DNA from: Dasania marina DSM 21967
Lineage (GTDB): Bacteria; Pseudomonadota; Gammaproteobacteria; Pseudomonadales; Dasaniaceae
Direction of reading: 5' to 3'
DNA length: 64,000 nt
Assembly (NCBI RefSeq): GCF_000373485.1
Contig: NZ_KB891575.1
Span: 928,169 to 992,168, forward strand
A program made the position numbers and the translations under genes. Every line of letters starts with the position of its first letter. Within the stretch, counting starts at the first letter, position 1. The notes under the pieces were generated by a model. That model did no database searches, had not been told where the DNA came from, and saw nothing but the letters and a program-made list of their open reading frames with translations. Below are positions 56,184 to 59,849 of this stretch, in pieces.

Positions 56184-56381
56184 AGGGGGCTCTGAGCTAA
56201 TGATGATAAAGTCTCAATTATAGAGAGCTGCGGCGCGAATGGAAAAGATATCTCGGCTTTAAGCGGTTTATTTCTGGGCGGCCAAGGCTAATCAGCGCTT
56301 TGTGCTGAATTATTTTGTGCAAGCGATTACTATGGCAGCCAATTATCATGATCACCATTTATTTCTGGGAGTTTGCTTGCC

Positions 56382-57905
56382 ATGCCGCAGCGCTATATCA
56401 AAAAAATACTCGAAGCCCGCGTTTACGATGTGGCGATAGAGACGCCTATTGATAAAGCCCCCAGTCTATCCAAGCGTTTTAATAATGAGATTTTGCTTAA
56501 GCGTGAAGACTTGCAGCCGGTATTCTCCTTTAAGATACGCGGCGCCTATAACAAAATGATGCACCTCACCGAGGAGGAGCTTAGCAAGGGCGTAGTAGCA
56601 GCCTCGGCGGGCAATCACGCTCAAGGCCTATCTATGGCCGCGTTAAAAATGGGGGTAAAGGCCACCATCGTCATGCCCAAAACCACGCCGCTCATTAAGG
56701 TAGATGCGGTGCGCAGCCGCGGTGCCAAGGTGGTGTTGCACGGCGATACCTTTGATGAGGCTTCTAAATACGCCTATCAACTGATGGAGCAAAAAGGCCT
56801 GGTGTTTGTACACCCCTATGACGACCCCGAGGTGATAGCTGGCCAGGGCACCATAGGCATGGAAATTTTGCGCCAGCATAACGGCCCCTTGGACGCGGTA
56901 TTTGTGCCGGTGGGCGGCGGCGGTTTATTGGCCGGCGTTTCGGCCTACATCAAATACCTGCGCCCCGATATAAAAGTGATAGGGGTGGAGCCAGAAGATG
57001 CCGCTTGCCTGAAACTGGCCCTGGAAAAAGGTCGCCGTGCCATTCTGCCGCAGGTAGGTATTTTTGCCGATGGCGTCGCCGTGGCGCAAATCGGTAAAGA
57101 GCCTTTTAGAATCATACGCAAAACGGTGGATGAGGTGATCACCGCCAGCACCGACGAAATCTGTGCAGCGATTAAAGATATTTTTGATGACACCCGCTCT
57201 ATTGCCGAGCCCGCCGGTGCTCTGGCCTTGGCCGGCTTGAAAAAATACATAGAGCGTACCGGTTGCGAGGGCAAAACCTTGTTGGCTATAGACAGCGGTG
57301 CCAATACCAACTTCGACCGTCTGCGTTATATCTCTGAGCGCACCGAAATTGGCGAGAAGCGCGAGGCCATACTGAGCGTGGTTATCCCTGAGCGTCCCGG
57401 TAGCTTTAAGCGTTTTTGCAGCGATCTGGGCAAACGCAATATTACCGAGTTTAACTACCGCTACGCCTCGCAAAAAGAGGCCAGCATTTTCGTGGGGGTA
57501 CAAACCTCGGGTCAGTCTAAGGACAGGCAGGCGTTGGTAGACGGCTTGGCCGAGAAGGGCTACCAGGTCACCGACTTAACCGATAATGAAATGGCAAAGC
57601 TGCATGTGCGCCATATGGTAGGCGGCCATGCGCCCTTTGCTGCGGGTGAGGAAGTGCTGTATCGCTTTGAGTTTCCCGAGCGCCCCGGTGCCTTGGATAA
57701 ATTCTTGGCCTGCTTGGGCAGCCGCTGGAATATCTCCATGTTTCACTACCGTAATCACGGCTCGGCCTATGGTCGGGTATTAGTGGGTATGCAGGTGCCC
57801 AAGGATCAGCGCAAGCAGTTGCAGCCCTTCTTCGATAAGCTGGGCTATCGCTATGCCGACGAGAGTGATAACTGCGTTTATCAGCAATTTCTCAGCGCTC
57901 AATAA
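56382..57905 (+). CDS. ilvA: Threonine ammonia-lyase (threonine deaminase), biosynthetic
   Basis: 507 residues, the long allosteric form. PLP Lys in PVFSFKIRGAYNKM, SAGNHAQGLSMAAL, and the glycine loop VPVGGGGLLAGVSA. Two ACT-like regulatory domains follow (about 330-505: AILSVVIPERPGSFKRF and YRFEFPERPGALDKFL). It deaminates threonine to 2-oxobutanoate for isoleucine synthesis and is normally inhibited by isoleucine. The ATG at 56382 is preceded by GGGAG at 10 bases; the TTG at 56373 is too near that site. An imperfect hairpin with T-run follows around 57920. Confidence 0.97.
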   Translation: MPQRYIKKILEARVYDVAIETPIDKAPSLSKRFNNEILLKREDLQPVFSFKIRGAYNKMMHLTEEELSKGVVAASAGNHAQGLSMAALKMGVKATIVMPKTTPLIKVDAVRSRGAKVVLHGDTFDEASKYAYQLMEQKGLVFVHPYDDPEVIAGQGTIGMEILRQHNGPLDAVFVPVGGGGLLAGVSAYIKYLRPDIKVIGVEPEDAACLKLALEKGRRAILPQVGIFADGVAVAQIGKEPFRIIRKTVDEVITASTDEICAAIKDIFDDTRSIAEPAGALALAGLKKYIERTGCEGKTLLAIDSGANTNFDRLRYISERTEIGEKREAILSVVIPERPGSFKRFCSDLGKRNITEFNYRYASQKEASIFVGVQTSGQSKDRQALVDGLAEKGYQVTDLTDNEMAKLHVRHMVGGHAPFAAGEEVLYRFEFPERPGALDKFLACLGSRWNISMFHYRNHGSAYGRVLVGMQVPKDQRKQLQPFFDKLGYRYADESDNCVYQQFLSAQ

Positions 57906-58313
57906 GGGGCTATTGGTCTCAAAAAAGGGGCTTTTGTGCCTTTTTTTGTGAAATAGTTACAAAAAGCCCTATAAAAACTGGCGTATTAGGCATTCCTCTG
58001 CCAATATTTTTGTCCCAGCCGCATCTGCTTTGCGAGTTGTTCGCTTTATGTTAGCTGGGGGCGTATAAAAAATAAAAACGATGCCCAAAGTTTTATCGAT
58101 TGCCCTACGTAGCATGTCTTCTCGATAGTCGTATCTTGTTAATCGTTATTGGCAATATGTCTAATTGCGCGCTGGCCTGTGATGTACTTAACAGCTTGGC
58201 CTATGAGTCGGTCACAGGAACGGGGATTGGCTTTGCGCTGCTGGAATTTATTCCTTAATGTGCAAGGAGCGGCTAATTGATATTAAGGCCCGAGACAGGG
58301 TTAGGAGATAGTA
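57906..58313. other. 408-bp spacer after ilvA, no larger gene
   Basis: The left end has a weak hairpin (AGGGGC ... GCC, T-run at about 57918-57952) that may end ilvA. The remainder shows no open frame with a ribosome site except the small ORF called next. Bases 58303-58307 are the AGGAG of that ORF. No tRNA or known RNA motif was recognised. Confidence 0.55.
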
Positions 58314-58406
58314 ATGTTATGTAAAGTTGATTCACTCACGATTTTGATGATCGTATTTAGCGTAGGTACCGTGTTAACGGGTACCTTGCAGATGTTTTTA
58401 GCGTAA
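58314..58406 (+). CDS. Possible 30-residue single-pass membrane protein
   Basis: MLCKVDSLTILMIVFSVGTV opens the frame, which then ends TLQMFLA. Residues ~8-29 are almost all hydrophobic or small, fitting one membrane helix. The ATG has a perfectly placed AGGAG (58303-58307) six bases upstream, which is better than many called genes here. No homologue can be named from memory. It lies between ilvA and the convergent fau gene, 11 bp before the fau stop. The coding status is moderate: a strong ribosome site and a helix-like composition, but short length. Confidence 0.5.
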   Translation: MLCKVDSLTILMIVFSVGTVLTGTLQMFLA

Positions 58407-58417
58407 GTAGTGCCGCG

Positions 58418-59014
58418 CTAAATAATAAATATCCCTTTATCGGTGGCCACCGCCGATAAAGGGATATCCCAACTCGCCAATTCTAGTTTTTCCACTTCCT
58501 GACAATGATGCGCCAAACCCAGTAGTTTAGGGCGTTTGTTGCTGGCCGGCTGTTGTAGCCAGGCAAAGGTTCTGTCGTAAAATCCCCCCCCCATACCGAG
58601 ACGGCCGCCGTCGTGGTCAAAGCCCACCAAGGGCATTAACACTAAGTCTAATTGCTCGGCGGGGTGAAACTCGGGGTGGAGGGGCTCGGGTATCGCGTAG
58701 CGATTGAGGGTGAGTTTATCGCCGGGGCGGTAGCGACTAAAGCGCAGGCTGTTACCCGGTTGTAGCACGGGCAAATAGCAGTGCTTACCGGCGGCAACGG
58801 CCTTTGCCAATAGGTACTGTGGGTCTATTTCGCCATCGTTGGCTAGGTATAGGGCGATATGTTGGGCGCGTTGGTAGTCGCCACTATCGCTGATCAGCTG
58901 GGCTAGCTGCTGGCTGGCTAGCTGCTGCTGCGGCTCGCTGAGGTCATTACGCAGGCTACGCAAGTGCTGTCGTAATTGTCGTTTGTGCTGTTCTAGTTGT
59001 TCTGGGCTGCTCAC
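58418..59014 (-). CDS. fau: 5-formyltetrahydrofolate cyclo-ligase
   Basis: 198 residues. An N-terminal helical segment with QLRQHLRSLRNDLS is followed by LALYLANDGEIDPQYLL, and by the ATP-binding signature DGGRLGMGGGFYDRTFAW near the C-terminus. It converts 5-formyl-THF to 5,10-methenyl-THF. It lies directly downstream of the 6S RNA gene on the same strand, the usual zapA-ssrS-fau (ygfA) arrangement, so part of its mRNA may come from 6S read-through. Confidence 0.95.
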   Translation of the reverse strand: MSSPEQLEQHKRQLRQHLRSLRNDLSEPQQQLASQQLAQLISDSGDYQRAQHIALYLANDGEIDPQYLLAKAVAAGKHCYLPVLQPGNSLRFSRYRPGDKLTLNRYAIPEPLHPEFHPAEQLDLVLMPLVGFDHDGGRLGMGGGFYDRTFAWLQQPASNKRPKLLGLAHHCQEVEKLELASWDIPLSAVATDKGIFII

Positions 59015-59082: not shown

Positions 59083-59264
59083 AGGGCTCTCCCTGTCTAC
59101 CGCTGGCGGTCTGTCCCTTGAACCCAGCGGTTCAGGGTGGTGGTTTCTGCCTAGTATCGGGCTTTCCGTCAAGCGGACAGGCACGCCAACAAGGCGAGAA
59201 ACCTCCGGGTGTATAAGCATCGGCTCAGGGGTCTGAACTACCTGGCAAATAGACGAGAGAGCGA
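59083..59264 (-). ncRNA. ssrS: 6S RNA
   Basis: About 180 nt, in the conserved zapA-ssrS-fau context. The minus strand has CCCCTGAGCCGAT, the conserved 5' element, and GGGTTCAAGGG, the conserved 3' element of gammaproteobacterial 6S RNA. The ends close in a stem: GCTCTC...GTCTA (59250-59262) with TAGAC...GAGAGC (59085-59099). The middle arms can pair around a large open bubble, as needed to mimic an open promoter for the sigma-70 holoenzyme. Ends are set from the closing stem and promoter, to within a few bases. Confidence 0.93.
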
Positions 59265-59301: not shown

Positions 59302-59616
59302 TTAACCCATATCTAATTGGCGAAAGCGGTGCAGGGCTTCATCAATTTTGTTGCCCAGCTTGCTGATTTGATCGTTGTTGGCCTTGCCGTTAGCGCCGGT
59401 TTGCGGGCCGGTTTCCAGTAGTTCATGGCTGATATTGAGAGCGGCCATCACGGCTATGCGCTCTACCCCCAAGACTTTACCGGTCTTGCGTATGCCTACC
59501 ATTTTTTGATCTAAGTACGCGGCAGACTGCTGTAAGGCTTGCTCCTGCCCCTCGGGGCAAGCGATTTGGTAATCTTTGCCGAGGATTTTTACAGTCACGG
59601 TGCCGTTGCTACTCAT
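59302..59616 (-). CDS. zapA: Cell division protein ZapA
   Basis: 104 residues. VTVKILGKDYQIACPEGQEQAL at the start and AYLDQKMVGIRKTGKVLGVERIAVMAALNISHELL form the globular ZapA domain, then a short coiled-coil tail. It crosslinks FtsZ filaments at the division site. Between the TIGR02449 gene and 6S RNA, as in Pseudomonas. Confidence 0.95.
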   Translation of the reverse strand: MSSNGTVTVKILGKDYQIACPEGQEQALQQSAAYLDQKMVGIRKTGKVLGVERIAVMAALNISHELLETGPQTGANGKANNDQISKLGNKIDEALHRFRQLDMG

Positions 59617-59639: not shown

Positions 59640-59849
59640 TTAAGATTCTTGTTCTATGGCTTTAAGCTTGGTGATCATGGCCTCAACGCGGTTGCGAGCC
59701 GTTTCAGTTTTTTCGATTAACTGTTCGCGCTCCTGCTGCCAGCCTATGGCCTCAGCTTTGAGTTTGCGGTTCTCGCTGTCTAGTTGGCCGCAAAACTCAA
59801 TCAAGCCTTCAATTTTCTTACTTAGCGCTTTCAAATTGTGATTGTCCAT
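59640..59849 (-). CDS. TIGR02449-family small coiled-coil protein
   Basis: 69 residues, almost entirely heptad-like coiled coil (LKALSKKIEGLIEFCGQLDS and following). This is the small protein found upstream of zapA in Pseudomonas-type genomes, reminiscent of ZapB in length and shape, and probably a division accessory; direct function not established. It lies 23 bp before zapA on the same strand. Confidence 0.85.
   Translation of the reverse strand: MDNHNLKALSKKIEGLIEFCGQLDSENRKLKAEAIGWQQEREQLIEKTETARNRVEAMITKLKAIEQES

Follow-up and report, generated by a model that had tools for sequence, protein, structure and literature searches.

Between ilvA and the convergent fau gene of Dasania marina lies a micro-gene with a 30-aa product, MLCKVDSLTILMIVFSVGTVLTGTLQMFLA (ORF list; table 1). 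The preliminary description of the window (the whole 64-kb stretch of DNA analyzed here) had reported an AGGAG word six bases ahead of an ATG that opens a hydrophobic frame of 30 codons between these two genes, and inspection of the sequence together with the list of open reading frames (ORFs) bears this out exactly. The encoded peptide has a GRAVY of 1.60, with a mean hydropathy of 1.91 in its most hydrophobic 19-residue segment, and the stop codons of the micro-ORF and fau are 11 nt apart. Prodigal applies a minimum gene length of 90 nt, and the micro-ORF, at 93 nt, is just above it. Beyond the zapB-like gene, and oriented away, are a UPF0149 gene and an aminopeptidase P gene, and rpiA lies to the left of the locus (all by Pfam).

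Table 1. Features of the micro-gene locus, in window coordinates
Feature	Coordinates	Strand	Evidence and remarks
ilvA	56373..57905	+	Pfam PALP and Thr_dehydrat_C; upstream neighbor of the micro-gene
Operator-like interrupted palindrome, TGTGA-N5-TTAACA-N18-TCACA	58178..58216	+	Family alignment
-35-like TTGCGC	58233..58238	+	Identified visually in the alignment; 17-nt spacer to the -10
-10-like TAATGT	58256..58261	+	Picked by eye; first T, A, and last T invariant in 8/8 family members
Shine-Dalgarno (SD) AGGAG	58303..58307	+	6-nt spacer (ATAGTA) to the ATG; sequence inspection
Micro-protein gene	58314..58406	+	30 codons (ATG 58314-58316) plus TAA (58404-58406); predicted single transmembrane helix, N-in/C-out; homologues, selection, model
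fau (5-formyltetrahydrofolate cyclo-ligase)	58418..59014	-	Pfam 5-FTHF_cyc-lig; convergent neighbor
18-bp hairpin	58429..58467		Spans the last fau codons; starts 22 nt past the micro-ORF stop
6S RNA (ssrS)	59084..59263	-	RF00013, 84.6 bits; context
zapA	59302..59616	-	Pfam; context
zapB-like	59640..59849	-	28.3 bits, under the Pfam cutoff of 31.5; context

On both strands of the window, the micro-ORF is the only ORF that combines an ATG start, an SD-like word no more than 14 bases upstream, a length of 25-60 codons, and a hydropathy that reaches 1.9 or more over 19 residues; 30 shuffled windows held a mean of 0.13 such ORFs, and shuffling of the intergenic region yielded one in 3 of 2,000 trials. 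These chance figures are partly fitted to the micro-ORF, because the hydropathy cutoff of 1.9 was set after a first run at 2.0 had missed it, and the evidence from relatives is far stronger.

Selection, Descent, and Spread of the Reading Frame

The micro-ORF is almost certainly a real gene, and codon comparisons among relatives show that its reading frame is under purifying selection. The window and Dasania sp. GY-MA-18 differ by 10 synonymous and 3 nonsynonymous changes in 29 codons (pS 0.47, pN 0.05), and the mean values are pS 0.66 and pN 0.28 for eight members from the same taxonomic family and pS 0.68 and pN 0.12 for 15 members flanked by a gene with an EVE domain, in which differences at the first, second, and third codon positions number 725, 120, and 1,584. 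The preliminary description regarded the ORF as a real single-pass micro-protein that frameshifts or in-frame stops in close relatives would call into question; its proposal is supported, as the eight aligned family members share the 30 codons and the stop position, with third-position-biased changes and no frameshift or internal stop. Of the features whose conservation it offered as a check, the stop is kept (8/8), whereas the ATG is replaced by GTG in two of the eight (L002, which is the Dasania relative, and L007); the identical SD word and spacing precede the GTG of the Dasania relative. Start codons over the 112 members of the wider set, as read, are ATG in 96, GTG in 13, and TTG in 3, and since these members were chosen from stop-free frames, their open frame is partly a matter of construction. 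Conservation along the intergenic alignment peaks at the ORF (0.69-0.78); it is 0.68-0.69 over 58180-58238, which takes in the operator-like element and the -35, 0.54 in the block holding most of the -10, and 0.14-0.44 onward to 58301. Mean identity is 45% for the micro-protein core and 45% for fau, and core distances track fau distances (Mantel r 0.56, p 0.001, 107 loci); the core is thus as conserved as its neighbor and diverges with it, which argues for vertical descent.

The 30-residue query matched 25 of 95 genomes at E ≤ 10, and several of the weaker matches are attributable to chance because they have neither the residue pattern of the family nor fau. Profiles reached further: one of 11 rows matched 243 of the 390 genomes of the order at E ≤ 1, and one of 61 rows matched 217 of the 390, in 97 of 142 genera, at E ≤ 0.05, leaving 173 genomes with no match to the 61-row profile at that threshold, at which so short a query has limited power. 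The named relatives are Dasania sp. GY-MA-18, one Spongiibacteraceae MAG, and two Oceanicoccus MAGs. Retention in close relatives, proposed as a check in the earlier account, is seen in nine of ten sampled genomes of the same taxonomic family (G000-G007 and G009) and fails in the tenth (G008), which gave zero matches in the single-sequence, 11-row, and 61-row profile searches; its ilvA and fau stand tail to tail, ~120 nt apart from stop to stop, and this gap contains no ORF with the family pattern, a case that demonstrates that the micro-gene can be lost.

Sampling of the class gave matches at E ≤ 0.01 in 43 of 369 genomes; 30 loci were fetched from this sample, and 11 of the 26 that lie outside the order keep fau on the opposite strand. 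A phylum sample of 299 genomes gave 20 matches at E ≤ 0.001, all of which fall within the same order and hence within Gammaproteobacteria. The micro-gene is single copy in its own genome, and a tblastn search with one 44-aa member found no match among plasmid records. A similar N-terminal [KRS]PD...G stretch was also observed in proteins of 114-157 aa from other Gammaproteobacteria (L161, L162, L166, L167, L168, and L170), which look exported, end in W (RHW, LRW, HRW, RRW, RRW, and VAW, respectively), and matched nothing in Pfam or NCBIfam at E ≤ 1; outer-membrane proteins often have a terminal aromatic residue.

Gene Order and the Control Region

A further 80 loci were fetched, hand-picked (and hence not random) down the E-value list to about E 0.006 with some skipped, and fau and the other neighbors were identified by phmmer. 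The synteny count excludes seven loci whose best profile score was below 17 bits (L016, L020, L022, L024, L025, L027, and L028), at none of which was fau found. After removal of duplicate proteins, 112 distinct members were kept, 110 of which have fau in the fetched DNA (L086 and L101 do not). In all 110, fau is convergent with the micro-gene: the median gap is 24 nt, 109 of the pairs lie within 255 nt or overlap, the largest gap is 895 nt (L088), and 28 frames overlap the end of fau, by 40 nt in L084. The window gene belongs to this fau-convergent family on both counts that define it, having D, F, G, and T/S in its helix and a site on the opposite strand 3' of fau.

The upstream neighbor, by comparison, varies by lineage among ilvA, EVE, and gcvR. 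Of the 68 members whose fetched DNA includes an ilvA frame, 67 have it upstream on the same strand; an EVE-domain gene (EVE by Pfam in L050) lies upstream on the opposite strand in all 20 EVE-flanked members, most of whose genomes appear to be Pseudomonas. Seven members have upstream, on the opposite strand, a gene that we take to be gcvR, with a long frame on the strand of the micro-gene intervening in five of the seven. At the loci examined, these neighbors (ilvA, fau, EVE, and gcvR) include no obvious membrane partner. Tandem pairs of family members were observed between ilvA and fau at L012/L026 (G012), L013 (G056), and L019 (G077); the short copy, which is GT-type in two of them and GA in L019, adjoins fau, and the longer, GV-type copy adjoins ilvA.

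Because the EVE gene points away, an upstream operon cannot supply the micro-gene in the 20 EVE-flanked members; this orientation and the conservation of the promoter-like pair within the family together suggest that the micro-gene has its own promoter. Less favorable to this suggestion are a consensus promoter scan of the region, which did not list the TTGCGC/TAATGT pair, the intervening same-strand frames at five gcvR-flanked loci, and the weakness of the fold after ilvA here (z -1.9). The interrupted palindrome ends 16 bases before the -35-like TTGCGC and spans 39 nt in seven of the eight family members (38 in L006), departing from the consensus as TGCGA in L004, TTATCA in L009, and TTAACG in L008. 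In the genome of the window, the element occurs once without mismatch and twice with 2 mismatches. Pairs of the form TGTGA-N3-40-TCACA occur upstream of 21 of the 112 members, where shuffles give a mean of 1.0, a count whose entries are not independent, as members are related, and some of whose pairs have other spacings. The palindrome folds as RNA no better than shuffles in six of the seven members folded (L008 being the exception, and L006 left out), and a DNA operator is therefore preferred over an RNA element. Expression of the micro-gene would probably be tuned by whatever binds this conserved TGTGA...TCACA element.

The hairpin downstream of the stop is strong, at -28.9 kcal/mol with a z of -7.8 for the + strand and -4.1 for the - strand; both converging transcripts may end there, and most of its sequence is retained in Dasania. 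An Rfam search of the intergenic region at a lax threshold returned one snoRNA and one microRNA model, both far under their gathering scores, and both were set aside. In the EVE-flanked group, we observed that, within the 34 nt that precede the start, the ribosome site GGGGG can occupy a small hairpin's loop (L050, L053, L055, L057, L064, L073, and L077), the stems of which vary on both sides together (ATTGCCT/AGGCAAT, TTCGCCT/AGGCGAA, and ATGCCT/AGGCAT); the other eight of the 15 have only 4-5-bp stems, and even for the seven, 1-17% of shuffles perform as well.

A Predicted Membrane Helix and Its Possible Roles

A single-sequence AlphaFold2 model of the micro-protein is a single helix (residues 2-29, mean pLDDT 88.9), and its length of 30 aa, with one hydrophobic stretch and one predicted helix, places it among single-helix proteins of less than ~50 aa; the positive-inside rule predicts an N-in/C-out topology. 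Residue D6 is invariant in 61 aligned members, and over 42 weighted clusters (100 distinct cores) F15 is conserved at 93%, G18 at 94%, and T or S at position 22 at 97%, the 100% value for D in this core set arising by construction, as the cores were anchored on D. In the cores, K or R and P usually precede D, the window protein having K-V-D. Steps of 3-4 residues separate F15, G18, and T22, as expected for one face of a helix; conservation has its strongest helical periodicity at 98 degrees, which is not significant (permutation p 0.16), so the data at most suggest a one-sided interface.

We hypothesize that the protein inserts as one helix, N-in/C-out, such that the charges of its N-terminus (K4, D6) lie on the cytosolic side, and that F15, G18, and T22 would pack against a larger inner-membrane protein or against the helix itself. 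The packing helix could then serve a larger complex in an accessory or regulatory capacity, in the manner of the subunits AcrZ, KdpF, or CydX. The C-terminal tail, which in other lineages ranges from none to about 30 residues, would project into the periplasm and would not be the conserved working part. That the family comprises vertically inherited, tiny inner-membrane proteins whose helix packs on a larger inner-membrane protein or on itself is an interpretation in which we place about even confidence.

Several other roles could be assigned to such a peptide. Its size and hydrophobicity, and its position adjoining fau, would fit a type I toxin, that is, a small hydrophobic peptide repressed by an antisense RNA, such as IbsC, which is presumably encoded beside fau (ygfA) in Escherichia coli in a similar orientation. 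Ibs-like toxins have a patchy, multicopy spread, whereas the micro-gene is single copy, occupies the same place over many genera, and has distances that track those of fau. Promoter-like sites listed for the region number two, both on the minus strand, against 1.4 expected by chance over both strands. Polar residues are also among the most conserved (D invariant in 61 members; T/S at 97%), which counts against a toxin because frame-shifted IbsC is reported to be still toxic (PMC7192591), and we consider a toxin highly improbable. The tail-to-tail position in 110/110 members and the overlapping ends in 28/110 mean that the two transcripts must meet or overlap, and these features, with the strong hairpin at 58429-58467, could indicate that the frame is incidental and that the conserved entity is an antisense or regulatory RNA over the 3' end of fau. 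This is very unlikely in view of a pN far under pS and of second-position changes being the rarest; the hairpin sequence, too, is not kept in the Oceanicoccus and Spongiibacteraceae MAG alignment rows.

In other Gammaproteobacteria there are longer proteins that resemble the family at the N-terminus, in which the helix is followed by A-x-A-like sites and a long C-terminal part, as would be expected if the hydrophobic part were a signal peptide from which a secreted or periplasmic tail is released. The window protein, however, stops right after the helix, 37 of the 112 members are only 29-33 aa in length and have little or nothing to release, and it is the helix that is kept while the tail differs between lineages; a secreted peptide is hence unlikely. 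A helix could also act with no fixed partner, altering the properties of the membrane, for which E. coli YohP provides a precedent: production of this 27-aa protein is reported to lower membrane fluidity and potential (PMC12719787). We judge that a bulk-membrane role would not seem to need D, F, G, and T/S to be kept throughout an order, and the Pfam model of YohP matches only one of 61 members (E 0.052), such that a partner-free role appears rather unlikely.

A broader proposal, which we regard as distinctly unlikely, is one in which the micro-gene is an unrecognised, deeply conserved part of the zapB-zapA-6S RNA-fau(-EVE) neighborhood, its mRNA running antisense into the fau 3' end so that transcription of the two genes is mutually exclusive, and its protein reporting on or adjusting a membrane complex. 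If this were true, a growth-phase switch of 6S RNA and folate would be linked to the membrane by mutually exclusive transcription and a protein together, and in EVE-bearing genomes the mRNA of the micro-gene would sit between fau and EVE. Irrespective of its role, the family is present in 97 of the 142 sampled genera of an order, within a well-studied neighborhood of 6S RNA, cell division, and folate genes, yet has no Pfam or NCBIfam model by these scans. Its few fixed residues make a search for a partner and point mutations directly possible in laboratory strains, and the family illustrates how a profile combined with gene order can recover 30-residue genes about which sequence searches by themselves are equivocal.

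Comparison with Known Families and Neighborhoods

Neither Pfam nor NCBIfam returned a family for the window protein at E values as high as 10, and the hits of the 61 members to the same collections are scattered, with at most four members per family; a match to the GspG pseudopilin (two members, lowest E 0.00018) was taken to reflect a shared hydrophobic N-terminus. Searches of PDB sequences gave a single match for the 61-row profile (E 6.5) and a single match for one longer member (E 5.4), the window protein matched one PHROGs entry weakly (phrog_23825, function not assigned, E 0.013), and PADLOC gave none. Among the matches listed in searches of open-licence literature (titles and the starts of abstracts), we found no description of the family under small proteins near fau or 6S RNA, P. 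aeruginosa small proteins, small membrane proteins, three sequence pieces of the family, or PA5228/PA5229. Public genomes may well list members as hypothetical proteins, and one may have been detected earlier among the 16 novel P. stutzeri small proteins in the supplement of PMC10433244.

The family resembles several characterized small membrane proteins in form and differs from each in sequence or setting. Accessory single-helix subunits of larger membrane complexes, such as AcrZ, KdpF, and CydX, are alike in their length, their one helix, and the absence of an enzymatic domain; however, no match to their Pfam or NCBIfam models was found (E up to 10 for the window protein and up to 0.1 for the 61 members), and the neighbors of the micro-gene at the loci examined are not acrAB, kdpABC, or cydAB. 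YohP is alike in size and in its single helix, but PF25659 and NCBIfam PRK14762 each match one of 61 members (E 0.052 and 0.057, respectively) and neither matches the window protein. The Ibs/Sib systems share a small hydrophobic peptide and the position beside fau in E. coli, and differ in that the micro-gene is single copy, conserves polar residues, descends vertically, and in the consensus scan shows no excess of antisense promoter-like sites.

The genomic setting has a published counterpart. The text of PMC7641849 describes a zapB-zapA-ssrS-(fau)-EVE neighborhood of beta- and gamma-proteobacteria, proposed to switch between proliferative modes, near which ygfB, pepP, rpiA, and ilvA are also named, and zapA-6S-ygfA synteny is noted for Alcanivorax (PMC9788540). 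The micro-gene shares this setting, yet the passages of PMC7641849 on the neighborhood mention no opposite-strand gene between fau and EVE, and its main text uses the words "small membrane" 0 times. The micro-gene and its relatives constitute a new family of a known kind of protein, the small single-pass membrane proteins, inside the published zapB-zapA-6S-fau neighborhood.
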